DNA of 11,268 bases from Deltaproteobacteria bacterium. GTDB taxonomy: Bacteria; Desulfobacterota; DSM-4660; Desulfatiglandales; Desulfatiglandaceae. Below are positions 886-11,268 of the stretch, piece after piece (within the stretch, counting starts at the first letter, position 1; each line of letters opens with the position of its first letter). The translations under genes were made by a program, and so were the position numbers. The notes beneath the pieces were generated by a model that was not told the origin of the DNA, did not search any database, and saw nothing but the letters and a program-made list of their open reading frames with translations. Location: the NCBI GenBank assembly GCA_018644785.1, contig JABGPV010000171.1, positions 1 through 11,268 of the forward strand. The letters run 5' to 3'.

Positions 886-2592
886 TTATATCCAGATCTC
901 AATTTTGAAAAAGCGGAAGAAGAGGAAAAACAGGGTGATCGCCAGAACGATCTTCAGGGTTTTCTCACTGAATAGCTTCTGCGCGCGGCTCCCTAACATA
1001 CCGCCGACAAAACCGCCGATGATAATGGAAATCATCAGCCATAGATCCGGCATATATCCATTCAACAGGTAACCGATGAAGGATCCGACACTGCTGAAGC
1101 AGGTACCGATAAGCGAAATCGGAACAGCAACGTACATGGGAAGCGCCCCCAGCGTGGTCATCGCCGGCACCAGCAAAAAACCGCCGCCAATGCCGAAAGA
1201 CCTGGAGACGACCCCAATACCCAGGCCCAGAATACCGAAAAGAAGTGGGTTGATTGTAAACTCTTCACCCCAGAATTTGAATCGATAATCGGTCAAACCG
1301 GTCTTGACGGGCTCAATCCTGCCCATTTCCACGGATTTTCCTTCTTTTTTGGCTTTGGCGACCGCCTCGTTGAATTTTTTAACCATGGCCTTGATGTTTT
1401 TCCGTTTCTCCATGGCCTTGGGCATCATCTCCCTTAGGGTCTGAATACCCATGAGGACCACAAGGACAGCCAGCCATTCTTTATATTGTTTCATCGGCAG
1501 GTATGCCGAGACATATTTTCCCAGCCAGATAGATCCGATGAAAATACCGACACCGAAAGAGATACCCACCGGCCAGGCCACCCGTCTTTCCACCACCGCA
1601 TACCGATAGAAAGAACCTAAGGGTGAGAACAAGGTCAGGGCCATGTTGGAGGGTTTCAGCACATTAGCGGCATTGATGCCCACGGGTCCGGCCGTATGGA
1701 CAACCAGTATCTGGAATGCCGCCATGAGCATGCCCCCGGCGGCGCCAATCATGGAAAAGTATGTGCCCACAAGAATGGCCCCGATAATAATCCAGAGAGG
1801 GTTCATGTAACGACAAGCCAAGTTCAGCCAGAACCCGTTTTTCAACACTCTATAAGAACCGCTCTTGGCGCCGTTGACATAGACATCGAAATCGGTATCA
1901 GGTGGTGTATTTCGGAAAGATTCAAAAGCAGCGGTGAATTTGCCTGTTTTCTTGTCCAACTGAATGGATGTGCCTTTGTCCCAGTATCTACCGCTTCCCT
2001 GGTCGGCCATGACCGTTCGGGAAAAGATCGTTACCTTGCCCACATTAGTGCTCTCTTTGACGATGGTGTTGATGCCGTATGAGGACTCGTTGGCGTATCT
2101 GAGAAAATTCCACTGATCCTCGGACGTGATGGGACCCAACATGGATTTGGCGCCGGCATCAATATCACCAAACTTCTTTTTAAGATAGTACATGGTGGTG
2201 GAGTATATCCCTCCGGTTTTGCCCATAAGAAACGACGGACCACCGAATCTTTTTTTTCCTTCTTTTCCGAAAGCGGCGGTATCGGTGGTTAGCATGTAAT
2301 AGAGTGGTGGAATCGCAGTGTTTTCGCTAAACTTATTTTTCTTTGCCGCTTTTTTAAGTTTTTTCTGTTCAGTAATCCCATCCGTGTCCTTGGTCGCAAA
2401 CATTTTCTGTTGCGCAATCGCGATATACAACTCCTGCCCCGGGGATATGGTACCTTCGATGGTCACAATATCACCGGCTTTGTATTCACTGGAAGATATT
2501 GTAGCCTCTGCATGAGTGATGCCGGGAACTGCAATAAATATGGCAATTGCCAGAATCAATAATGTAGTAAATAATTTCAATACTTTGTTCAT
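886..2592 (-). CDS. TSUP-family (TauE/SafE) permease with large exported N-terminal domain
   Basis: This 568-residue protein starts at an ATG preceded by GGGAGGAAAAC. Residues 1-28 are a signal peptide or first membrane anchor, ending in THA before Glu29. Residues 29 to about 258 are hydrophilic and probably periplasmic; I do not recognise a domain there. From about residue 262 there are roughly eight membrane segments in two halves, separated by a Lys/Glu-rich cytosolic loop (about 390-445). Each half opens with a glycine-rich helix, GTYFSMIGAAGG in the first and GVVSRSFGIGGG in the second, the internal repeat typical of TSUP transporters. Family members export or import small sulfur or organic anions (sulfite, sulfoacetate, taurine-derived products, thiosulfate). 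Usual length is 250-300 residues, so the N-terminal extension is notable. The substrate is not determinable here; sulfite or a related anion is the inference. The upstream membrane-protein gene is on the same strand, 86 bp away, and may be co-transcribed. Confidence 0.85.
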   Translation of the reverse strand: MNKVLKLFTTLLILAIAIFIAVPGITHAEATISSSEYKAGDIVTIEGTISPGQELYIAIAQQKMFATKDTDGITEQKKLKKAAKKNKFSENTAIPPLYYMLTTDTAAFGKEGKKRFGGPSFLMGKTGGIYSTTMYYLKKKFGDIDAGAKSMLGPITSEDQWNFLRYANESSYGINTIVKESTNVGKVTIFSRTVMADQGSGRYWDKGTSIQLDKKTGKFTAAFESFRNTPPDTDFDVYVNGAKSGSYRVLKNGFWLNLACRYMNPLWIIIGAILVGTYFSMIGAAGGMLMAAFQILVVHTAGPVGINAANVLKPSNMALTLFSPLGSFYRYAVVERRVAWPVGISFGVGIFIGSIWLGKYVSAYLPMKQYKEWLAVLVVLMGIQTLREMMPKAMEKRKNIKAMVKKFNEAVAKAKKEGKSVEMGRIEPVKTGLTDYRFKFWGEEFTINPLLFGILGLGIGVVSRSFGIGGGFLLVPAMTTLGALPMYVAVPISLIGTCFSSVGSFIGYLLNGYMPDLWLMISIIIGGFVGGMLGSRAQKLFSEKTLKIVLAITLFFLFFRFFKIEIWI

Positions 2593-2678: not shown

Positions 2679-3083
2679 CTATTTTTTTAACTTAAAATAC
2701 TGAATTGCCAATACTGCGCCCAACTCACTACAGACAATGCCGATTATTAAGAAAACCATAAGATCCCCGCTATTAAACAAGTTTTCACCCATTATATTTA
2801 CGGATATTAAAATCAAGATGGAGTAAGTGATTAAAACGTTTAAAATACCTGATATCATAGCGGATATCTGTTTATATCTTAGCAGATCCCTTGCCTTATC
2901 CAGCAGGGAGTATCCTGTTATTGCGGTATTCAGAGCTATTATCCACGGAATAAATTTGAGAACTGAAAAGATATTAAGGAAGGTAGAGAAAAACAGAACA
3001 ATGAGTATTGCACCCAATACACCCGCAAGGATTGAATAGGCGATTTTACCCAGTAGAGAAAAACTATTTTTAGTAAGACCCAT
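2679..3083 (-). CDS. Hypothetical small integral membrane protein, four predicted helices
   Basis: I do not recognise this family. From the Met at 3083 (MGLTKNSFSLLGK) the product is 134 residues with about four hydrophobic segments: ILAGVLGAILIVLFFSTF, a shorter one around FIPWIIALNTAITGY, ISGILNVLITYSILILI, and VFLIIGIVCSELGAVLAI. A short basic stretch (DKARDLLRYKQ) lies between segments two and three, and the C-terminus is lysine-rich. The frame stays open upstream to an ATG at 3182, which would add 33 residues, but that extension is not hydrophobic or family-like and neither start has a convincing ribosome binding site, so I chose the internal Met. Base composition is clearly more AT-rich than the downstream TSUP gene. 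It could be an accessory membrane partner of the permease or simply an orphan gene. Confidence 0.5.
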   Translation of the reverse strand: MGLTKNSFSLLGKIAYSILAGVLGAILIVLFFSTFLNIFSVLKFIPWIIALNTAITGYSLLDKARDLLRYKQISAMISGILNVLITYSILILISVNIMGENLFNSGDLMVFLIIGIVCSELGAVLAIQYFKLKK

Positions 3084-3410
3084 TGTATTTAATATATAAT
3101 TTCCATTAGTGTGAAATACCAGCCCTTTCAAGGTAGTACTCTCACCTGCTCCTTTTGGCGAGAATCTTGGATGTAGAAACATGTGGAGTATTCTTGCAGC
3201 TTTTCCGCTTCGGTTGCGGCTTTTTTGGTCCTCGGGGATGTTTTTGAAAAGTTGAAAGTCTTATATTACCCGCAAGTTCTTTAAGTAATTGGGATAGCTT
3301 AGCTGAAGGATGAACTTAAAGCGCAATAATTTTGTTGTACAAAGAAAATACGGCGCCTGAAGCTGAATCGTTTGAGAGATCGGCATGTAATATAAATAAT
3401 TTCATATGGG

Positions 3411-3442
3411 AGTGCAATAAAAGTTTTGCACTTACCGGTAAG
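3411..3442. promoter_or_regulatory. Adjacent palindromes, possible activator binding sites
   Basis: AGTGCAA (3411-3417) and TTGCACT (3426-3432) form a perfect 7-bp inverted repeat with an 8-base spacer. Overlapping its end is the perfect 12-bp palindrome CTTACCGGTAAG (3431-3442). They lie roughly 195-225 bp upstream of the start point predicted from the sigma-54 promoter candidate. Enhancer sites for sigma-54 activators usually lie 80-200 bp upstream, so these are at or slightly beyond that range. The symmetry is seen directly; the regulatory role is inferred. Confidence 0.35.
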
Positions 3443-3609
3443 ACTCTCCTCCATATTTGGAAATTGTTTAACAAAATCAATTTTCACATAAGAATGATAG
3501 ACGCCCTCTTTAAATATTAAGCAAAAATATAAACATGTTACACGTATTCAAGCACGCCTTAAACCGCTATACTGGAAATATGACATTAAATAAAAAGTTA
3601 TGATGTTCC

Positions 3610-3625
3610 AGGCATACTATTTGCA
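3610..3625 (+). promoter_or_regulatory. Candidate sigma-54 (-24/-12) promoter
   Basis: The sequence AGGCATACTATTTGCA matches the RpoN consensus TGGCAC-N5-TTGCA at nine of eleven defined positions. The essential GG (3611-3612) and GC (3623-3624) are separated by exactly 10 bases. Transcription would start near 3636, just before the signal-peptide ORF at 3668 and about 310 bases before the molybdoenzyme gene. If real, the promoter would need an ATP-dependent enhancer-binding activator, which is not encoded in this window. It may serve the whole operon, or it may have belonged to the decayed secreted-protein gene. Confidence 0.5.
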
Positions 3626-3667
3626 GAAATCCCGATGGCATTAAAAAGTTTTTAAGAGGAGAGATTA

Positions 3668-3781
3668 ATGAAAAAACTATTGACAATCGGTATGACAATC
3701 CTGCTGCTTGTTGTTTTAACATTGCCTGCCATGGCAGTTAAAAACAGGCGCAATCGCTCCAAAGACAATCTCTCTACTTGA
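3668..3781 (+). pseudogene. 37-codon signal-peptide ORF, probable remnant of a secreted-protein gene
   Basis: An ATG with a strong purine-rich ribosome binding site (AAGAGGAGAG, 5 to 8 bases upstream) opens a textbook signal peptide: MKKLLTIGMTILLLVVLTLP followed by AMA at residues 21-23. The frame then ends after only 14 further residues (VKNRRNRSKDNLST). Just after the cleavage site, the next frame reads LKTGAIAPKTISL, which loosely resembles the beginning of redoxin domains (G-x-x-A-P-x-F-x-L). A third frame continues open from there to about 3862. This pattern suggests a frameshifted, decayed exported protein, possibly thioredoxin/peroxiredoxin-like, though that assignment is weak. The alternative is a genuine very short exported peptide or a leader ORF of the operon. 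It lies 32 bases downstream of the predicted sigma-54 start point. Confidence 0.4.
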
Positions 3782-3943
3782 ACGGCTGTTCAGGTAAATG
3801 GGCACAACGGATGAAGGGCAATCGAATCTCATTCCATAGCAGCCCATGCGGGTGGTAGTAATACAGAGAAAGTTAAATAATTATATTCTTAAACAAGTTG
3901 CAAAAATTCAAAAAAGCGAAATCAAAGAAAAGGGAGGAAAGGC

Positions 3944-6028
3944 ATGACGAAAGAGATATTCAGTCTCTGTTTTATGTGTTCTGTGCGTTGTCCCATTAAG
4001 GTGCAGGTCACAGACGGCCTCGTCAAGTTCATTGAGGGCAATCCCCATGTGGCGGGGATTGAAGGAAGCCTCTGCCCCAGAGGATCAGCAGGTATTTCCC
4101 TGCTCTATGACGATGAAAGAGTAAAGGACCCGATGATCCGGGTGGGCGAGCGGGGCGAAGGGCACTGGAAAAAGGCCACATGGGATGAGGCCCTTGACTT
4201 TGTCGCCGAAAAGCTAAAACCGATCATTGAAGAGCACGGGGGGCACAGCGTCGTCATCGGTGAGCGCACACAACTTGCCACACATGCCACGAAAACCTTT
4301 TTGAAAGCAATCGGTTCTCCCAATCAGTTTACCCATGACTCCCTATGCAAGGGTTCGGTGAACACGGCCTGCCGCTCGCTTTTCGGCTACACAGACGCTC
4401 AGATGAACATGGACTATGGAAATACAAAACATATCGTGCTCTATGGGCGAAATCTGTTTGAGTCTCTTTCGGTGAAAGAAGTAAACAACATGATGAAGGG
4501 CTTGGAGAAAGGAGCCGAACTCACCTACATCGATCCCAGGGTCACTGTGACCGCTACCAAGGCACGACGATATTGGATGATCCGCCCCGGCACCGATCTT
4601 GCCCTCAACTACGCCCTTATCCACGTGATACTCAAAGAAAACTTATACGATACCGAATATGTCCACAGGTGGGTCCAGGGTCTGGCCGCCCTTCAGGATT
4701 TCATTGGTCCCTATACACCGGAATGGGCTGAGGAGGAGACAGGAATTCCTGCCGGCGCCATTGTGGACCTGGCACGAAGGGTGAGCAAGGCCAAGCCTCA
4801 GGTCATCTTTCATTTCGGATATCGAGGCGCCAACCACCCTAATGAGATCTACCTCCGCCGCTCCATTATGATCTTGAACAGCCTCATGGGAAGTGTTGAG
4901 GCAAAAGGAGGCTTCTTTTTCAAGAAAGGCCCGGGCGAAGAAGGGGGCAAACCCGCAAGGAAGCTCACGGAACAGGATTTTCCCAAGATCGAAGTTCCTC
5001 GCTTCGACAAAGTAGGAACACCGGAGTTCCCGCTGCCTGATCCAAACCATGGTGTGGGCCAGATGCTGCCCAACGCCATCCTCAATGAAGACCCCTACCC
5101 AATCAAGGCGTTGATTGCCTTTCGCTTTGATCCATTAATGTCCATACCCGATACCAATCTTACCAAGAAAGCATTAGAGAAACTTGATCTGATTGTAGCC
5201 ATTGATATTAACTACAGTGATATTGCATGGCATGCGGATGTTATCCTTCCGGAGTCCACCTACCTTGAACGAACCGACTCTATCCAGCAAGCCAATGCTC
5301 TCAAGCCTCAGATGTTTTTGAGGAGACAGGCCGTTCCTCCCCGGTACAACACCCGGGAGGGGGCCATGATCCTTAAACAGATCGCCGACCGCATCGGTAC
5401 AGGGAAGTATTTTCCCTATGAAAACATGGAAGATCTGGTCAAATGGCAACTTGAAGGGACAGGCTTTAAGATTGAGGACTTTGACGCCAAGGGTTTTGTG
5501 GCTTATGGGAAAAACAAAATCTTCTGGGACCGAAAGGACGGAATCAAATTCAAGACCCCATCCGGGAAGATTGAATTCAAATCATCCCTTTTGGAGGACG
5601 CGGGATTCGAGTCATTTCCCGCCTATGAGCACATGCCCTCACCGCCAGAGGGCTACTTCAGACTTGTGGTGGGCCGAAATGCCGTCCATACCCATGTTTC
5701 CACACAGAACAACCCTTACTTAAATGAAATTTGCCCGGAGAATCTTCTCTGGATCAATTCAGAGAAGGCGGAAGAGCTGGGCATCAGTGACGGTGATTTG
5801 GTGGAAGTAGCTTCCAAGGTTGGCAGTGGCACAATCAAGGCGTTCGTTACCGACCTCATCCACGCGGAAGCTGCTTTTATGCTTCACGGCTTTGGCCATG
5901 AGGCGGAGCGGGCCACACGCTCATATCAGAAGGGTGTTAATGATGCGCTACTCCAGGAGAATATCTCGGATCTGATTGGTGGAAGCCCGGCCCTGCACCA
6001 CACTTTCGTATCCGTAAAACCGGCATAA
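3944..6028 (+). CDS. Cytoplasmic PhsA/PsrA-like molybdopterin oxidoreductase, catalytic subunit
   Basis: The 694-residue product starts at an ATG preceded by GGGAGG at a 6-base gap. A [4Fe-4S] motif opens the protein: Cys9, Cys12, Cys16 and Cys44 (C-x2-C-x3-C-x27-C, followed by PRG). The bis-molybdopterin-guanine-dinucleotide domains follow, with HWKKATWDEAL near residue 74. Cys135, in THDSLCKGS, is the likely Mo/W ligand. The C-terminal cofactor-binding domain (about 567-690) contains STQNNPYLNE and LGISDGDLVEVAS. No twin-arginine signal is present, so it should act in the cytoplasm, unlike periplasmic PhsA/PsrA. The overall pattern fits thiosulfate/polysulfide reductase-like members of the DMSO reductase superfamily. 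Formate dehydrogenases have Sec/Cys followed by His at the ligand; here Lys follows. The ligand codon is TGC, not TGA. Substrate and direction are unproven. It heads an operon with an electron-transfer subunit 20 bp downstream and NAD-linked subunits beyond. Confidence 0.85.
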   Translation: MTKEIFSLCFMCSVRCPIKVQVTDGLVKFIEGNPHVAGIEGSLCPRGSAGISLLYDDERVKDPMIRVGERGEGHWKKATWDEALDFVAEKLKPIIEEHGGHSVVIGERTQLATHATKTFLKAIGSPNQFTHDSLCKGSVNTACRSLFGYTDAQMNMDYGNTKHIVLYGRNLFESLSVKEVNNMMKGLEKGAELTYIDPRVTVTATKARRYWMIRPGTDLALNYALIHVILKENLYDTEYVHRWVQGLAALQDFIGPYTPEWAEEETGIPAGAIVDLARRVSKAKPQVIFHFGYRGANHPNEIYLRRSIMILNSLMGSVEAKGGFFFKKGPGEEGGKPARKLTEQDFPKIEVPRFDKVGTPEFPLPDPNHGVGQMLPNAILNEDPYPIKALIAFRFDPLMSIPDTNLTKKALEKLDLIVAIDINYSDIAWHADVILPESTYLERTDSIQQANALKPQMFLRRQAVPPRYNTREGAMILKQIADRIGTGKYFPYENMEDLVKWQLEGTGFKIEDFDAKGFVAYGKNKIFWDRKDGIKFKTPSGKIEFKSSLLEDAGFESFPAYEHMPSPPEGYFRLVVGRNAVHTHVSTQNNPYLNEICPENLLWINSEKAEELGISDGDLVEVASKVGSGTIKAFVTDLIHAEAAFMLHGFGHEAERATRSYQKGVNDALLQENISDLIGGSPALHHTFVSVKPA

Positions 6029-6048
6029 TAAGCTATTGGAGGAGAACA

Positions 6049-6570
6049 ATGAGCAAATATTTCATGTTGCAGGATCAGCAGAAATGTATTGGCTGTCATT
6101 CATGCGAAATTGCCTGTAAGAGCAATAAAGGTCTGCCCGCAAGCTCGAGACCCTGCCAGATAATCACTGTGGGCCCCAAGTTTTTCAACGGCAGACCGCG
6201 GGCATCCTATATTTTTATGCCCTGTTTTCATTGTGAAAACCCCTGGTGCATAGCCTCCTGTCCCACAGGGGCCATGCAGAGGAGGCCACACGATGGGATC
6301 GTTTTCGTGAATCACAATCTCTGTGTTGGGTGTAAGACCTGCATCTCCGCGTGCCCCTGGGGCGCGCCTCAGTGGAACTCGGAGACTGGAAAGGTAGTCA
6401 AGTGTGATTACTGTATGGACCGGATCGACCTGGGGCTCAAACCGGTCTGCGTTACGATCTGCACCTCCCATTGCCTTAATTTTGACGTAACCGAAAAGAT
6501 GCCGCTCATGAAGCGGGAGCGTTACGCTCAGGCAATGGCCTCCACAAAAGGTGCGGCACACCTAGAATAA
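6049..6570 (+). CDS. Four-[4Fe-4S] ferredoxin-like electron transfer subunit (DmsB/PhsB type)
   Basis: The 173-residue protein begins 20 bp after the catalytic gene, with GGAGGAG as ribosome binding site. It has sixteen conserved cysteines in the standard order: C13-x2-C16-x2-C19-x3-C23; C59-x2-C62-x4-C67-x3-C71; C92-x2-C95-x2-C98-x3-C102; and C119-x2-C122-x11-C134-x3-C138. These bind four cubane clusters in the family that includes DmsB, PhsB, PsrB, FdhB and HycB. It has no C-terminal membrane helix and no signal peptide, and no NrfD/PsrC-like quinone-reacting subunit is encoded beside it. Electrons are therefore likely passed to the NuoE/F/G-like subunits encoded next rather than to the quinone pool. 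The pairing with the catalytic subunit is supported by adjacency and family precedent. Confidence 0.9.
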   Translation: MSKYFMLQDQQKCIGCHSCEIACKSNKGLPASSRPCQIITVGPKFFNGRPRASYIFMPCFHCENPWCIASCPTGAMQRRPHDGIVFVNHNLCVGCKTCISACPWGAPQWNSETGKVVKCDYCMDRIDLGLKPVCVTICTSHCLNFDVTEKMPLMKRERYAQAMASTKGAAHLE

Positions 6571-6743
6571 TAGATGCCTACAAAACCCCCTAACCGGGTC
6601 GGAGGCCTCGAGATCCCTTTGAGAAAGAGGGAGACCTATTTCACTCTCTCCATTGAAATAGCACCTTCAAATCCTCCCCTTCCAAAAGGGAGTGAGAGCG
6701 ATTTTGGCAGGGGAATCCTTCACTAACAAGAGGAGCATGATTC
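6571..6743. other. 173-bp intra-operon spacer with short repeats
   Basis: No gene is seen. The spacer holds purine- and pyrimidine-rich tracts and weak symmetry: TCACTC near 6640 against GAGTGA near 6691, and a small hairpin TCCCCTTCCAAAAGGGA around 6674-6690. It resembles a degenerate palindromic repeat of the kind often found between genes. A processing site or partial terminator that lowers expression of the downstream NAD module relative to the catalytic genes is possible but unproven. Confidence 0.3.
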
Positions 6744-7202
6744 ATGGATGTGGAAACAGTAAATTCAATCCTCACTAAATTTCCGGAAGTAAAAGGCAAT
6801 CTTATTGGGATCCTTCATGAGATGCAGAACCGCTTCAACTATCTTCCTGAGGAAGAGCTGCGGTACTTATCAAAAAGAACCAACGTACCAATTACCCAGA
6901 TATACAGTATTGTGAATTTCTATAACCGATTCAGTCTCGAACCAAAGGGCGAGAATGTGGTCTGCGTATGCCTTGGCACGGCCTGCCATGTGAAAGGCGC
7001 TGAAAGGGTGATGGATCAAATCAGGGGGGAGCTGGATATCAAGGCCGGAGCAGGCGGAACGACGGATGATATGAAATTCTCTCTGGAAGAAGTCCGGTGT
7101 ATCGGGGCCTGTAGTCTGGCCCCGGCAGTTGTGGTGAATGAAGAGACCTACGGCCAGGTGACTCCTAAGCAGGTTCATAAGATATTGAGACACTATAGGT
7201 AA
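6744..7202 (+). CDS. NuoE-like [2Fe-2S] thioredoxin-fold subunit (HydC/HoxE type)
   Basis: This 152-residue protein matches the 24-kDa subunit family of complex I and of soluble NAD-linked hydrogenases and formate dehydrogenases. An N-terminal helical part (about 1-65, with LIGILHEMQNRFNYLP and VNFYNRF) precedes a thioredoxin-like domain. Its [2Fe-2S] ligands are Cys76 and Cys81 (CLGTAC) and Cys119 and Cys123 (CIGAC), the family's spacing. AGAGGAG lies 8 bases before the ATG; another ATG nine bases upstream is out of frame. NuoE partners NuoF and relays electrons near the FMN site. It is encoded directly before a NuoF-like gene, which supports a NuoEF heterodimer in the cytoplasm. Confidence 0.92.
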   Translation: MDVETVNSILTKFPEVKGNLIGILHEMQNRFNYLPEEELRYLSKRTNVPITQIYSIVNFYNRFSLEPKGENVVCVCLGTACHVKGAERVMDQIRGELDIKAGAGGTTDDMKFSLEEVRCIGACSLAPAVVVNEETYGQVTPKQVHKILRHYR

Positions 7203-7305
7203 TTGTTCGGCCAGGTGGGTTCGTTTCGTGCTGTTGGCGTTGTGAAAAGCGCGAATAACTCAAAAGGGCGGACAGTGCAACCAATTACGTCATAAGGGTT
7301 AAAAT

Positions 7306-9087
7306 ATGGCTTCAAAAACCGACAAAGAAATCGTCATAAGTATCTGTGCCGGCACCGGCGGCGTTGCAGCCGGAGGCAATAAAGTGATAGAGGCATTCCA
7401 GCAGGCATTGGATGAAAACGAGCTGACAGCGAAGTACAAGGCTCGAACCCACAAGGTGGGATGTCGAGGTTTTTGCGCAAAGGATGTCCTGGTGGATGCG
7501 GCCATTGACGGTGAGCAATGGACTTACCAATTTGTTACGCCGGATAAGGCAAAAGCGATTGTAGAAAAACATATTGTTGGAGGTGAGCCCGTCAGTAAGT
7601 GGTTGGTCAAGGAAGACTACCATGCTTTTCACAGCAAGCAACAAAAGCTGGTGCTCGCGAATTGCGGTCAAATTGACCCGGAATCCATTGAGGAATATAT
7701 TGCCTTTGGAGGATACGAGGCCGCCAGAGATGCTCTGGGGATAGATCCGGATGAGATAATCGGGACCATTACGGAGTCAGGTCTTAGGGGCCGAGGGGGA
7801 GGCGGTTTTCCCACCGGTATCAAATGGGGAAGCTGCCGGCGGGCCGGCGGTGATATTAAATACGTCCTGTGCAACGCTGACGAAGGCGACCCCGGGGCCT
7901 TTATGGATCGCTCCATCATTGAGGGAAATCCCCACTCTGTCATAGAGGGGATGATCATCGGCGCCCACGCCATCGGTTCTTCCCAAGGCTTTGTCTATAT
8001 TCGCGCCGAATACCCCCTGGCGGTGGACCGTCTTCGCCTGGCCCTTGATCAGGCGCGGGAGAGAAATTTTCTGGGGAAAAATGTTTTTAGCACGAATTTC
8101 AATTTTGAGATCAAAGTCGTGCTTGGCGCCGGGGCCTTTGTATGCGGCGAGTCAACCGCCCTTATGACTTCTATTGAAGACAGGGCAGGTGAACCAAGGC
8201 CAAAATATGTTCACACCACCGACCGGGGAGTTTGGGGAAAACCGAGCAACCTGAATAATGTGGAGACATGGGCTAATGTCCCTTTGATCATCAAAAATGG
8301 GGCAAAGTGGTACAATGGGATCGGCAGCGATATCAGCAAAGGAACCAAAATATTCTCTTTGGTGGGTAAGATCAATAATACCGGTCTGGTGGAAGTCCCC
8401 ATGGGTATCCCTTTGCGAGATGTCATTTACGAGATAGGCGGCGGCATTCCCAAAAAGAGAAAATTCAAAGCCGTTCAAACGGGTGGGCCATCGGGCGGAT
8501 GCATCCCGGCCAGCCATCTTGATATGCCTTTGGACTATGAACACCTTTACGAAGCAGGGTCCATGATGGGCTCTGGCGGCATGATCGTCCTAGACGAGGA
8601 TACATGCATGGTTGACATGGCCAGGTACTTCTTGGAATTTTGCCGGGATGAGGGATGCGGACAGTGCACACCGTGCAGAGAAGGTATTTTCCACATGGTG
8701 CGATTGCTGACAGAGATCACCGAAGGAAAGGGAACACCGGAGCATATCTCGATACTAGAAGAGCTATCCCCCATGATTGAGGATGCTTCTCTGTGCGGCC
8801 TTGGCAAAAGCGCGCCGAATCCCGTTTTATCCACGCTTCGCTATTTCCGGGACGAATACGAGGCCCACATCATAGATAAGCGCTGCCCGGCCGGGGTATG
8901 CAAGGCCCTTACCACTTTCACCATAGATGAAGCCGCCTGTAACGGATGCACGGTGTGTGCCCGAAACTGCCCTGTAGCCGCAATTACCGGTGAAAAAAAA
9001 GAACCTCATCATATCCATCAAGATAGATGTATCAAATGCCGTATCTGCTACGAAGGCTGCAAGTTTGGGGCTATTATGAAAGGATAG
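7306..9087 (+). CDS. NuoF-like NAD(H)/FMN-binding subunit with extra ferredoxin domains (HydB/HoxF-like)
   Basis: The 593-residue protein has three parts. Residues 1 to about 90 form a thioredoxin-like [2Fe-2S] domain with Cys14, Cys53 and Cys57. The usual second cysteine is replaced by Gly19 (CAGTGGVAAGG), so this cluster may be altered or absent. Residues about 130-520 are the NuoF core. It has the NADH/FMN glycine-rich motif GLRGRGGGGFPTGIKW (159-174), CNADEGDPGAF (189-199), CGESTAL (280-286), and the N3-type [4Fe-4S] ligands Cys451, Cys454, Cys457 and Cys497. The C-terminus carries a bacterial 2[4Fe-4S] ferredoxin: Cys545, 548, 551, 555 and 575, 578, 581, 585. Complex I NuoF (about 450 residues) lacks both extensions, whereas NAD-linked and electron-bifurcating hydrogenases such as Thermotoga HydB have them. 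This is the NAD(H) entry or exit point of the complex. The ribosome binding site is weak (AAGGG, about 8 bases upstream), after a 103-bp gap from nuoE. Confidence 0.92.
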   Translation: MASKTDKEIVISICAGTGGVAAGGNKVIEAFQQALDENELTAKYKARTHKVGCRGFCAKDVLVDAAIDGEQWTYQFVTPDKAKAIVEKHIVGGEPVSKWLVKEDYHAFHSKQQKLVLANCGQIDPESIEEYIAFGGYEAARDALGIDPDEIIGTITESGLRGRGGGGFPTGIKWGSCRRAGGDIKYVLCNADEGDPGAFMDRSIIEGNPHSVIEGMIIGAHAIGSSQGFVYIRAEYPLAVDRLRLALDQARERNFLGKNVFSTNFNFEIKVVLGAGAFVCGESTALMTSIEDRAGEPRPKYVHTTDRGVWGKPSNLNNVETWANVPLIIKNGAKWYNGIGSDISKGTKIFSLVGKINNTGLVEVPMGIPLRDVIYEIGGGIPKKRKFKAVQTGGPSGGCIPASHLDMPLDYEHLYEAGSMMGSGGMIVLDEDTCMVDMARYFLEFCRDEGCGQCTPCREGIFHMVRLLTEITEGKGTPEHISILEELSPMIEDASLCGLGKSAPNPVLSTLRYFRDEYEAHIIDKRCPAGVCKALTTFTIDEAACNGCTVCARNCPVAAITGEKKEPHHIHQDRCIKCRICYEGCKFGAIMKG

Positions 9088-9099
9088 GGATATAGAGTT

Positions 9100-9903
9100 A
9101 TGGCAACAATGATCAATCTCACAATTAACGGAAAAAAGGTTCAGGCCTCCGAAGGCATGACTGTTATTGAAGCGGCCAAAAATGCGGGGATCTTTATCCC
9201 TTCTCTCTGCTACCATGAAGCTTTCGAGCCTGAAGGGACATGCAGGCTCTGTATCGTCGAGGTGAGCGGCCCGATCCGAAACTCAGTCAGGGTCTCCTGC
9301 ATCCAGGAGGTCAAAGAAGGCCTGGTGGTGGAGACAGAGACAGAGCGCATAAAAAAACATCGCACGCTCATCTTAGAGCTCCTTTTGGGCCGTTCGCCAT
9401 ACTCAAAAGAACTCCTGGATCTGGCTGCCAGATGCGGAGTCGTCACAAGTCGGTTCCTGACCGGGGAGCAGGATGATTGCGTACGATGCGGCAGATGTGT
9501 CCGGGTCTGCCGCGACAGAATCGGCGCTTATGCCCTCTGTTGGGCCAATCGAGGATACGAGCGAAAAGTCACCACGGATTTCGAGCGGCTTTCGGAATAC
9601 TGTATAGGCTGTGGCTCCTGCGCCCAGGTCTGCCCAACCGGCGCAATCAAGATGGAAGACAGGGGAGTTGAGAGAAAGATATATACCTGGGGACAAGTAG
9701 TTGCCCGATTTAAACTCGAAAGATGCAAGCAGTGCGATAAGCCTTTTGCTCCCAAGAAATATCTGGATTGGGTGAGAGAAAGGGCATACAAACCCATGGG
9801 TCTGAAACTTGTGGACATTATCTGTCCTGAATGTGTCAGGAAGGCTGAACGTCCGGCACCTGTTGAAAGCCCATTGACTGGTGCACCGTTTCAGGCTTGG
9901 TGA
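9100..9903 (+). CDS. NuoG-N-terminus-like iron-sulfur subunit, paralog 1
   Basis: The 267-residue protein starts 12 bp after the NuoF-like gene. Residues 1 to about 80 form a plant-type [2Fe-2S] domain with Cys37, Cys48, Cys51 and Cys67. The segment that in NuoG/HydA carries the H-x3-C-x2-C-x5-C cluster is present only as a helical stretch (about 84-115) without those ligands. A 2[4Fe-4S] ferredoxin domain follows: Cys127, 130, 133, 137 and Cys168, 171, 174, 178. The C-terminal part has a further pair of CxxC motifs, Cys209/Cys212 and Cys242/Cys245, which may bind zinc or another cluster. No molybdopterin-binding half is fused, unlike full NuoG. It probably links NuoEF to the catalytic module or to ferredoxin. 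The gene immediately downstream encodes a paralog with the same layout. Confidence 0.85.
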   Translation: MATMINLTINGKKVQASEGMTVIEAAKNAGIFIPSLCYHEAFEPEGTCRLCIVEVSGPIRNSVRVSCIQEVKEGLVVETETERIKKHRTLILELLLGRSPYSKELLDLAARCGVVTSRFLTGEQDDCVRCGRCVRVCRDRIGAYALCWANRGYERKVTTDFERLSEYCIGCGSCAQVCPTGAIKMEDRGVERKIYTWGQVVARFKLERCKQCDKPFAPKKYLDWVRERAYKPMGLKLVDIICPECVRKAERPAPVESPLTGAPFQAW

Positions 9904-9924
9904 TTTTTACTGGGAGATACTGCA

Positions 9925-10719
9925 ATGGAGAATTTTGTCAAGATAAAGATCAATGGAGAGCAACATGAGGCGGAAGCGGGCAAGAGACTCATCCTGATAT
10001 TGGAGGAGAAGGGCGTCAAGGTCCCCCATCTTTGCTTTCATCATGCCCTGGTGCCAGGCGCCTCATGTAAACTTTGCGTAGTGGAAGTAAAGGAAAAAAA
10101 CAAGCCGCCTTCCACCAAGCTTTCATGCGCAATCAAATGCAGGGAGGGATTGGAAATAACCACAGAGAGTGCAATGGTTTATCAGTTGAGAAATACTGCC
10201 ATTGGCAATCTTCTGAAACTGGCGCCCCGGGCCGATATCATCCATCAGATTGGCGAAGAATTCGGGCTTACCACGGGCACAAAACCCGATGGTTGCATTC
10301 GTTGCCGTCTGTGCGTCAGGATTTGTAAAGATATTATCGGAGCAAAGGCCCTTAGAATAGTTAAAAAAAACGGAATGAATTGTGTGGTTCCTTCTGAAGT
10401 GGGAACTTGCCTCGGATGCGGAACCTGCGCCAATATCTGCCCTACCGGCGCCATCAGGTTTGAAGATAGGGGAAATGTGCGAACCATACTTATCAGGGAT
10501 GAGACTATCGGAAGCCATGCGCTTGAGAGATGCGAGATATGCGGAAGCCTGTTTGCGACTGCCAAGTTTCTGAAACATGTGGAAAAGTCTGAGGAATCCC
10601 ACCCGCATGTGAAGGAATCTCATATACTTTGTTCCACCTGCGCCAAACTGTCCGCGGTAAAAAACCTGAAACTGCTCACCCCGCATCTTGCGAATACATA
10701 CGCTGGCAAACCCACATAG
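9925..10719 (+). CDS. NuoG-N-terminus-like iron-sulfur subunit, paralog 2
   Basis: The 264-residue product begins 21 bp after paralog 1, with GGGAG 8 bases before the ATG. It repeats the same architecture: [2Fe-2S] ligands Cys37, Cys48, Cys51, Cys68; a helical linker lacking the His-Cys3 motif; 2[4Fe-4S] ligands Cys124, 127, 130, 134 and Cys162, 165, 168, 172; and terminal CxxC pairs at Cys203/206 and Cys236/239. The string GAIRFEDRG aligns with GAIKMEDRG of paralog 1. Elsewhere the two differ a lot, so the duplication is old or the subunits were recruited separately. Two such subunits could form alternative branches from NuoEF, or contact different partners (catalytic pair versus ferredoxin). 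It is the last gene of the operon; the next gene is convergent. Confidence 0.85.
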   Translation: MENFVKIKINGEQHEAEAGKRLILILEEKGVKVPHLCFHHALVPGASCKLCVVEVKEKNKPPSTKLSCAIKCREGLEITTESAMVYQLRNTAIGNLLKLAPRADIIHQIGEEFGLTTGTKPDGCIRCRLCVRICKDIIGAKALRIVKKNGMNCVVPSEVGTCLGCGTCANICPTGAIRFEDRGNVRTILIRDETIGSHALERCEICGSLFATAKFLKHVEKSEESHPHVKESHILCSTCAKLSAVKNLKLLTPHLANTYAGKPT

Positions 10720-10837: not shown

Positions 10838-10922
10838 AAGAAGGAACATAAGCAAGACAGGCACTTAATTTCGTTTATGGGAGACTGCTTTCTCTGTAGG
10901 TCAGTCTTGCTTCTTCCTTCTT
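10838..10922. repeat. Long interrupted inverted repeat across the end of the flavoprotein gene
   Basis: The left arm (10838-10858) reads AAGAAGGAA, a 3-base spacer, then AAGCAAGAC. The right arm (10904-10922) reads GTCTTGCTT, a 1-base spacer, then TTCCTTCTT. All 18 arm positions pair, around a 45-base loop. The right arm lies inside the last codons of the minus-strand flavoprotein gene and the loop contains its stop codon. In the minus-strand transcript this would be a 3'-end stem, so it may protect or end that message. The symmetry is seen directly; the role is inferred. Confidence 0.4.
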
Positions 10923-11268
10923 GACCACGATATTCCGTAACCAGCGGTCGTTATCCTCTTCCGGACAATCTGTGCGGTAGTGAGACCCTCGGCTCTCGGT
11001 TCGCAATAAAGCCGCCCGGCAGACCACTTCGGAGAGCAGCAGCATATTTTCAAGCTCAAGGCATCGGATGAGATCAGACATTTTCCCGATCGAAGCTTTT
11101 GCTGCCTCAGACCCGATATGGGATATTTTTTCCAGAGCCTCGCCAAGGCCTTCCGGATCACGCAGAATCCCGGCCTTGGACCACATGGCCTCCTTCAGGG
11201 ACCGACACAAAACCTTTGGATCCAAACCACTTCCCCCGAAATGGGATTCCAGACGGACTTTTTCATGG
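10875..11268 (-). CDS. C-terminal end of a fumarate reductase/succinate dehydrogenase-type flavoprotein (partial; N-terminus lies beyond the window)
   Basis: The frame is open from the right window edge to a TAA at 10875, giving about 131 residues; no start is needed inside the window. The C-terminal helical domain of the FAD-dependent family (SdhA, FrdA, L-aspartate oxidase, adenylylsulfate reductase alpha relatives) is recognisable. It has LELENMLLLSEVVCRAALLR, then TESRGSHYRTDCPEEDNDRW, which corresponds to the conserved R-x-E-S-R-G-x-H-x-R-x-D-x-P signature. The segment ends shortly after, which is short compared with long SdhA/FrdA C-termini. The exact substrate cannot be told from this part because the FAD and active-site regions are missing. 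The gene converges on the molybdoenzyme operon, so it belongs to another transcription unit. Confidence 0.8.
   Translation of the reverse strand, partial: HEKVRLESHFGGSGLDPKVLCRSLKEAMWSKAGILRDPEGLGEALEKISHIGSEAAKASIGKMSDLIRCLELENMLLLSEVVCRAALLRTESRGSHYRTDCPEEDNDRWLRNIVVKKEEARLTYRESSLP

Follow-up and report, generated by a model that had tools for sequence, protein, structure and literature searches.

The window analysed here is a stretch of 11,268 nucleotides (contig JABGPV010000171.1, assembly GCA_018644785.1) from a Deltaproteobacteria bacterium of the Desulfatiglandaceae. Six open reading frames (ORFs) on the + strand fill positions 3944 to 10719. They encode a PhsA-like enzyme with molybdenum or tungsten in a bis-pyranopterin guanine dinucleotide cofactor (Mo/W-bisPGD), a four-cluster ferredoxin, NuoE, an extended NuoF and two proteins resembling the N-terminus of NuoG (Table 1). 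The gaps between them measure, in order, 20, 173, 103, 12 and 21 bp. An original prediction, made from the letters of the DNA, had proposed six genes in one direction over this span, and ORFs lie at exactly these positions, with the domains described according to Pfam and NCBIfam searches. A window scan detected hydrophobic windows in none of the six proteins.

Table 1. Features of the window, the six-gene run first and its flanks below.
Feature	Position	Strand	Basis
PhsA/PsrA-like Mo/W-bisPGD catalytic subunit, no signal peptide, 694 aa	3944..6028	+	Pfam/NCBIfam, tree, fold, Cys inventory
DmsB/PsrB-type four-[4Fe-4S] electron-transfer subunit, 173 aa	6049..6570	+	Pfam/NCBIfam, PDB match, Cys inventory
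NuoE/HydC/BfuC-like thioredoxin-fold [2Fe-2S] subunit, 152 aa	6744..7202	+	Pfam/NCBIfam, Cys inventory
Extended NuoF/HydB/BfuB, 593 aa	7306..9087	+	Pfam, PDB matches, ligand alignment, Cys inventory
NuoG1, BfuA-like, 267 aa, one 2Fe-2S and two 4Fe-4S motif sets	9100..9903	+	Pfam, PDB match
NuoG2, second BfuA-like subunit, 264 aa, same cluster set as NuoG1	9925..10719	+	Pfam, PDB match
TauE/SafE-family permease with N-terminal extension, often a neighbour of phsA in relatives	886..2592	-	Pfam, neighbourhood comparison
167-aa protein with four hydrophobic windows	2679..3182	-	ORF, hydrophobicity scan, neighbourhood comparison
Weak rhodanese-like match, under the Pfam cut-off, at window edge	1-336
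Long AT-rich gap ahead of phsA (37% GC at 3001-4000)	3183-3943
C-terminus like fumarate reductase/succinate dehydrogenase flavoprotein (best NCBIfam model TfrA), cut by window end	10875-11267	-	NCBIfam

The catalytic subunit consists of the Molybdop_Fe4S4, Molybdopterin and Molydop_binding domains (Pfam), with C9, C12, C16 and C44 as iron-sulfur (Fe-S) ligands and C135 as metal ligand. Polysulfide reductase (PSR) was its closest solved relative both by sequence and by fold, and ArrA ranked third in the fold comparison, which was based on the predicted structure of this subunit alone. A tree was built from 92 rows: 21 loci of clade I and 29 of clade II, 35 further homologues, six references and the window itself. 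The nearest reference in it was the enterobacterial PhsA, and PSR from T. thermophilus lay further out. It was computed in quick mode, with support given by the SH-aLRT (an approximate likelihood ratio test) only. L173 fell outside the split between clades I and II, and three loci with a partial PhsA (L018, L153 and L023) were left out; two long rows, L078 and E. coli DmsA, joined and were flagged by the program, and nothing was drawn from them. Sequence, fold and the Cys ligand all fit membership of the PhsA/PsrA lineage. A formate dehydrogenase (FDH) was rejected as an identity for this subunit, which lacks the Sec/Cys-His pair, the RGQNNVQG-type motif and a position in the FDH clade, the fold also speaking against it. 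The earlier expectation of a non-formate enzyme thus agrees with tree, motifs and fold, which set the protein outside the characterised FDHs.

The catalytic subunit had also been expected to lack a signal and a quinone anchor, and both expectations held in the relatives scanned. Of 98 loci with 42% identity or more, among which one place appears twice and a few are truncated ahead of the start, five fit a loose RR pattern of the twin-arginine translocation (Tat) type; inspected by eye, none of the five shows a hydrophobic segment preceding its Fe-S domain. A crude scan for membrane anchors, covering unassigned multi-spanning ORFs on the same strand within 3 kb, gave one match in 49 clade I loci (a 982-aa protein in L138) and five in 51 clade II loci. 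A periplasmic, quinone-linked enzyme of the PSR/PhsABC kind was rejected: no Tat signal was found, nor, in this crude scan, an NrfD/PsrC- or PhsC-type anchor.

The ferredoxin subunit is of the DmsB type, and 16 of its 18 Cys residues could be assigned to four clusters. NuoE is the BfuC-type subunit by Pfam. NuoF combines a thioredoxin-like N-terminus, Complex1_51K (the FMN/NADH domain), SLBB, NADH_4Fe-4S (B1) and a Fer4 region with two C-terminal 4Fe-4S motifs. Its top nine PDB matches are HydB/NfnB-type chains (605-737 bits), among the top matches 8a6t_B, named 'Electron bifurcating hydrogenase subunit HydB'; the NuoF chains of complex I and NAD-linked FDHs match at no more than 381 bits. The Bfu family is defined by its BfuBC core, five ligands of cluster B2 being named; the B2 His is missing in just 8 of 1558 BfuB proteins and absent from non-bifurcating homologues (PMC9304861). 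In our NuoF, C434, T472, H521, C527 and C532 align with C438, C476 (Cys or Thr), H525, C531 and C536, and with agreement at all five positions diagnostic of bifurcation the predicted HydB-like character of the extended NuoF was confirmed.

NuoG1 and NuoG2 had been described as NuoG-N-terminus-like. The Fer2_4 and 4Fe-4S domains of both bear this out, but the two are more than N-termini, because their alignment with 9mqx_A (247 aa), the best PDB match of both, spans most of their length. We take the 9mqx complex to be the tungsten aldehyde oxidoreductase Wor-Bfu. Its chain B resembles NuoF and its chain E the ferredoxin subunit; unlike the presumed catalytic chain of that complex, the one encoded here belongs to the PhsA/PsrA type of the dimethyl sulfoxide (DMSO)-reductase superfamily. 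If every motif fills, the six proteins would hold about 17 Fe-S clusters, besides flavin mononucleotide (FMN) and Mo/W-bisPGD.

Relatives were surveyed in 395 Desulfobacterota genomes. With a threshold of E <= 1e-150, 102 genomes had a PhsA match, and 39 of these hold a clade I protein (at least 62% identity, two partial). A search for the six-gene order, which had been suggested with the original prediction, recovered it in L114 and L115, whose PhsA proteins are 83% and 80% identical to that of the window, and also in L001 (88%) up to the point where the contig ends. The ferredoxin gene (at least 40% identity) is present in 48 of the 49 clade I loci, the exception, L153, being cut inside phsA, and in 47 of the 51 clade II loci. 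What accompanies this pair varies. Clade I loci contain a GltD-type flavoprotein (38), NuoEF (2), both (1), Rnf (1) or no module (7); clade II loci contain complex I genes (22), a GltD-type protein (13), NuoEF-like genes (2) or no module (14). These counts cover the whole fetched region on either strand, so that a module 'beside' phsA is meant loosely: it lies on the other strand in L160 and L161 (GltD-type), L181 (NuoEF) and four complex I loci named below. The partial-PhsA loci are included, L028 is excluded from the clade II counts and L007, the same place as L122, is excluded. L005 was assigned to the GltD-type by hand from a 99-aa match at a contig end, and L131 and L142 carry other, unclassified flavoprotein partners. 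The family is modular, with the NuoEF version in the minority, something that the letters of the DNA could not show; within clade I this version looks like a late gain in one branch.

Fer4_20 and Pyr_redox_2 were found in all five GltD-type proteins scanned, and a 4Fe-4S domain in all four that reach the C-terminus. In the protein of L018 this C-terminal domain is closer to NuoG1 (40% over 126 aa) than to NuoG2 (34% over 130), and the 4Fe-4S/C-terminal part of NuoG1 is, by this alignment, homologous to the C-terminus of the relatives' GltD-type protein. In L114 a GltD-type gene follows nuoEFG1G2. GltD-type loci, too, can hold an orthologue of NuoG2, encoded by a gene of its own. Orthologues at 47% identity or more were found in 16 of the 395 genomes, 13 of them among the 39 with a PhsA of clade I (hypergeometric 5e-12, with no correction for relatedness). 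As for the remaining genomes with NuoG2, G143 has an N gap just ahead of its ferredoxin gene, in G112 a contig edge falls inside the GltD-type gene, and the third, G169, is taken up below.

Other arrangements were noticed along the way. L010 (9884-17076) carries PhsA and ferredoxin genes, then RnfC (Pfam) and, by eye, RnfD, RnfG and RnfE, possibly an Rnf-coupled version. In L142 (6924-8378) a flavoprotein resembling dihydrolipoamide dehydrogenase (by eye) follows PhsA and ferredoxin, replacing the GltD-type gene. Genes resembling sensor kinases and response regulators (by eye) recur close to phsA in L009, L114, L120 and L122, in some of which a protein of about 200 aa follows the TauE gene.

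A clue to the substrate came from this TauE-family gene. Where both flanks extend at least 3 kb, its distance from phsA is no more than 3 kb in 27 of 38 loci of clade I, in 12 of 43 of clade II and in none of 21 other PhsA-family loci; the figures for all loci are 30/47, 13/50 and 0/45. Judging from 4-11 TauE matches per genome in 15 genomes, adjacency by chance was estimated at about 1-2%. The sulfur substrate of the original prediction gains support from these permeases and from the tree position sister to PhsA.

Starting from the genes, their order, motifs, clade and fold as observed, we infer one complex, its electron order, its substrate, bifurcation and direction. The six gene products may assemble into a single complex, soluble in the cytoplasm, that belongs to the electron-bifurcating Bfu kind as a Phs-type member, acts on thiosulfate and is likely confurcating; we judge the chances of this explanation, the one we favour, to be evenly balanced. 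PhsA and the four-cluster ferredoxin would interconvert thiosulfate and sulfite plus sulfide. Electrons could pass from the ferredoxin clusters through the BfuA-like NuoG2 and NuoG1 to the NuoEF (BfuBC) core, where NAD(H) would exchange electrons at FMN and ferredoxin at the C-terminal clusters. The thiosulfate couple lies at -402 mV, and intracellular sulfite is toxic (PMC3949148); NADH is placed at -280 mV and ferredoxin at -500 mV (PMC9304861, Table 1). Confurcation is the likely net reaction because the thiosulfate couple (E0' -402 mV) falls between the two donors: NADH and reduced ferredoxin would drive thiosulfate reduction when thiosulfate is low, and the reaction would be reversible at high sulfite and sulfide. 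We calculated about -343 mV at 1 uM thiosulfate, 10 uM sulfite and 1 mM sulfide, and -254 mV at 1 mM thiosulfate, so confurcation would pay only at low thiosulfate. The nearby TauE-type permease may handle cytoplasmic sulfite or a related compound.

Several results weigh against this thiosulfate-confurcating complex. The gene nuoE is bordered by the two widest gaps (173 and 103 bp). The best NCBIfam model of the catalytic subunit, PhsA (NF012032), scored 614.1 bits, below its curated cut-off of 694, and at that cut-off it had no match in the genomes of six relatives. The residues next to the metal ligand (Cys-Lys; GYRGA) are unlike those of E. coli PhsA and PSR, and the substrate may therefore have shifted. 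The N-terminal B5 region of NuoF has three Cys (C14, C53 and C57) versus four in A. mobile; 9n5u_B and 9bov_B also have three, one at another position. The commonest clade I partner is the GltD-type flavoprotein (39/49) and not NuoEF (3/49), which means that bifurcation cannot be what these enzymes do in general. Among clade II loci, the NuoEFG1 genes of L181 are on the opposite strand, and the NuoF of L180 (5939-9100), counted under NuoEF, is a 1054-aa fusion with a further domain and no C-terminal 4Fe-4S pair. The complete genome G169 (L200, 3415-8933) has TauE, GltD-type and NuoG2 genes with no PhsA alongside, its clade II PhsA being located elsewhere, which counts against a strict NuoG2-PhsA link. 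Phs content was low during thiosulfate disproportionation by Desulfolithobacter (PMC9751629), and our literature search found no biochemistry of any clade I member.

Among the alternatives, a soluble Bfu-type complex of the same build could reduce polysulfide or sulfur with NADH, with or without ferredoxin. We consider this unlikely, taking into account that PSR is the closest solved relative by sequence and fold and that a weak rhodanese-like match lies at the window edge, but that the tree places enterobacterial PhsA nearer than the T. thermophilus PSR. Going by the potentials, NADH by itself suffices to reduce polysulfide, which would make a confurcating core wasteful of ferredoxin, and TauE neighbours would suit a sulfite-producing enzyme better.

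The locus might instead encode two adjacent enzymes, one a reductase of thiosulfate or polysulfide made of PhsA and the ferredoxin, the other a bifurcating NuoEFG1G2 unit unrelated to it. The gaps around nuoE, the opposite strand in L181, the GltD-type and NuoG2 genes without PhsA in G169 and the 46 of 49 clade I loci where PhsA occurs without NuoEF (seven of them without a recognised module) are in accord with this division. The window has, however, no further catalytic gene alongside NuoEFG1G2, gene order is retained in L114 and L115, and the NuoG1-like domain fused to the GltD-type protein points to a shared docking piece. We regard two enzymes as rather improbable. Slightly more improbable is a complex that acts on a different substrate known from the Psr/Phs/Srr/Arr lineages, either organic or an oxyanion (selenite, arsenate or tetrathionate, for instance). 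PsrA, PhsA and SrrA are treated as a single lineage (PMC10100899) and ArrA ranks third by fold, but the TauE association counts against it, and no arsenic or selenium genes were noticed in the neighbourhoods compared, although no search was aimed at them. An NAD/ferredoxin-linked FDH or CO2 reductase resembling other Mo/W-Bfu enzymes is largely excluded by the catalytic subunit itself, even though FDHs are frequent among Bfu enzymes (PMC9304861) and Wood-Ljungdahl genes (by eye) lie on the other strand near L116, in the D. widdelii genome.

The favoured complex has known systems on each side. Type 2 members of the Bfu family (BfuABC/HydABC), with extra catalytic subunits, share with it the BfuBC core, the B2 ligands including the diagnostic His, and BfuA-like subunits, of which there are two here versus one in the family; the extra subunits would carry the third-substrate site. 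No Phs/Psr-type catalytic subunit appears in Table 1 of the report on the family, and 'thiosulfate', 'polysulfide' and 'molybdopterin' are absent from its main text (PMC9304861). PsrABC/PhsABC agree with it in their catalytic and four-cluster subunits, in fold and in the Cys that binds the metal; they differ in having a signal and an anchor, neither found here, where the enzyme goes with modules of NAD(H)/ferredoxin type. Thermotoga maritima has in its cytoplasm a polysulfide reductase that depends on NAD(P)H and also reduces thiosulfate, resembling the proposed complex in these respects; it is introduced via archaeal NAD(P)H-dependent enzymes, and nothing in the available text marks it as a molybdoenzyme (PMC9431562). 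In Desulfotignum, NuoEF stands beside FdhF and PhsAB is mentioned separately (PMC4046663). The component families are known and their combination is new: neither a Phs/Psr-type Bfu enzyme nor a stated link of PhsAB to complex I was found in the literature searched, from which subscription journals were mostly absent.

Of the flanking genes, that for the 167-aa protein has counterparts in kept position in L001 (57%), L114 (35%), L115 (33%) and L116 (29%). No Rfam family reached its gathering threshold in the window, promoter-like (10 versus 8.9 in shuffles) and terminator-like sites (9 versus 9.5) showed no excess, and a plasmid search returned 1211 records, every one below 60% identity (32.6-33.0% among the 15 matches listed).

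Signal-less phsA also accompanies complex I. In 18 of the 22 such loci, phsA and the complex I genes share one strand with phsA-fer4 first (L012, L013, L017, L019, L154, L156, L157, L158, L162-L167, L170, L171, L172 and L189); in the other four (L023, L187, L190 and L192) the strands are opposite and matches weaker (e.g. NuoD 40-41%). The ferredoxin gene accompanies PhsA at most of them. At E <= 1e-40, the NuoF family had no match in 14 of the 16 genomes searched, all with same-strand loci, whose assemblies may be incomplete; G009 and G288 had one. Complex I without NuoEFG occurs in sulfur disproportionators (PMC4911364, PMC12142623), and 'some unknown electron-donating oxidoreductase' has been suggested for it (PMC12142623). 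The signal-less PhsA-ferredoxin pair is a candidate for this electron partner. Desulfolithobacter dissulfuricans, compared by description, is like the clade II loci: PhsA-1 (GF1_30490) and PhsB-1 (GF1_30500), from which subunit C is absent per the authors, adjoin by tag Nuo GF1_30510 and GF1_30520. Both Nuo subunits were detected under thiosulfate disproportionation only, where PhsA-1 was slightly more abundant. The partner there is complex I rather than NuoEF, and in the available text the authors draw no link between PhsAB and Nuo (PMC9751629).

A wider proposal, which we offer tentatively and think more probably wrong than right, is that signal-less PhsA-ferredoxin acts as a plug-in head for the thiosulfate/(sulfite + sulfide) couple near -400 mV, docking on at least four machines: BfuBC (NADH and ferredoxin), the GltD-type NAD(P)H flavoprotein, Rnf and NuoEFG-less complex I. 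On complex I, thiosulfate cleavage would be powered by reverse electron flow at the expense of menaquinol and the proton gradient, or else protons would be pumped as the reaction runs the other way; this would be the energised step of thiosulfate disproportionation and supply the missing electron partner. Against it, Thermosulfurimonas dismutans has no PhsA-type orthologue (PMC9751629), its complex I also being without NuoEFG (PMC4911364), and ten thiosulfate disproportionators have no PhsA- or TtrA-type orthologues (PMC9751629), so complex I-driven cleavage could not be general.

With its potential of -402 mV, the thiosulfate couple lies below what menaquinol can serve and is difficult for NADH. 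An enzyme in the cytoplasm that merges electrons from NADH and ferredoxin would, if real, allow the use of trace thiosulfate or reversible running, and would bring an inorganic sulfur couple into the Bfu family. The complex I version would offer a concrete candidate partner where sulfur disproportionators have a complex I without NuoEFG, as some do. Genes for a PhsA core that stand with an NADH- and ferredoxin-linked unit here, and beside other machines in close relatives, suggest how a thermodynamically awkward sulfur step might be powered.

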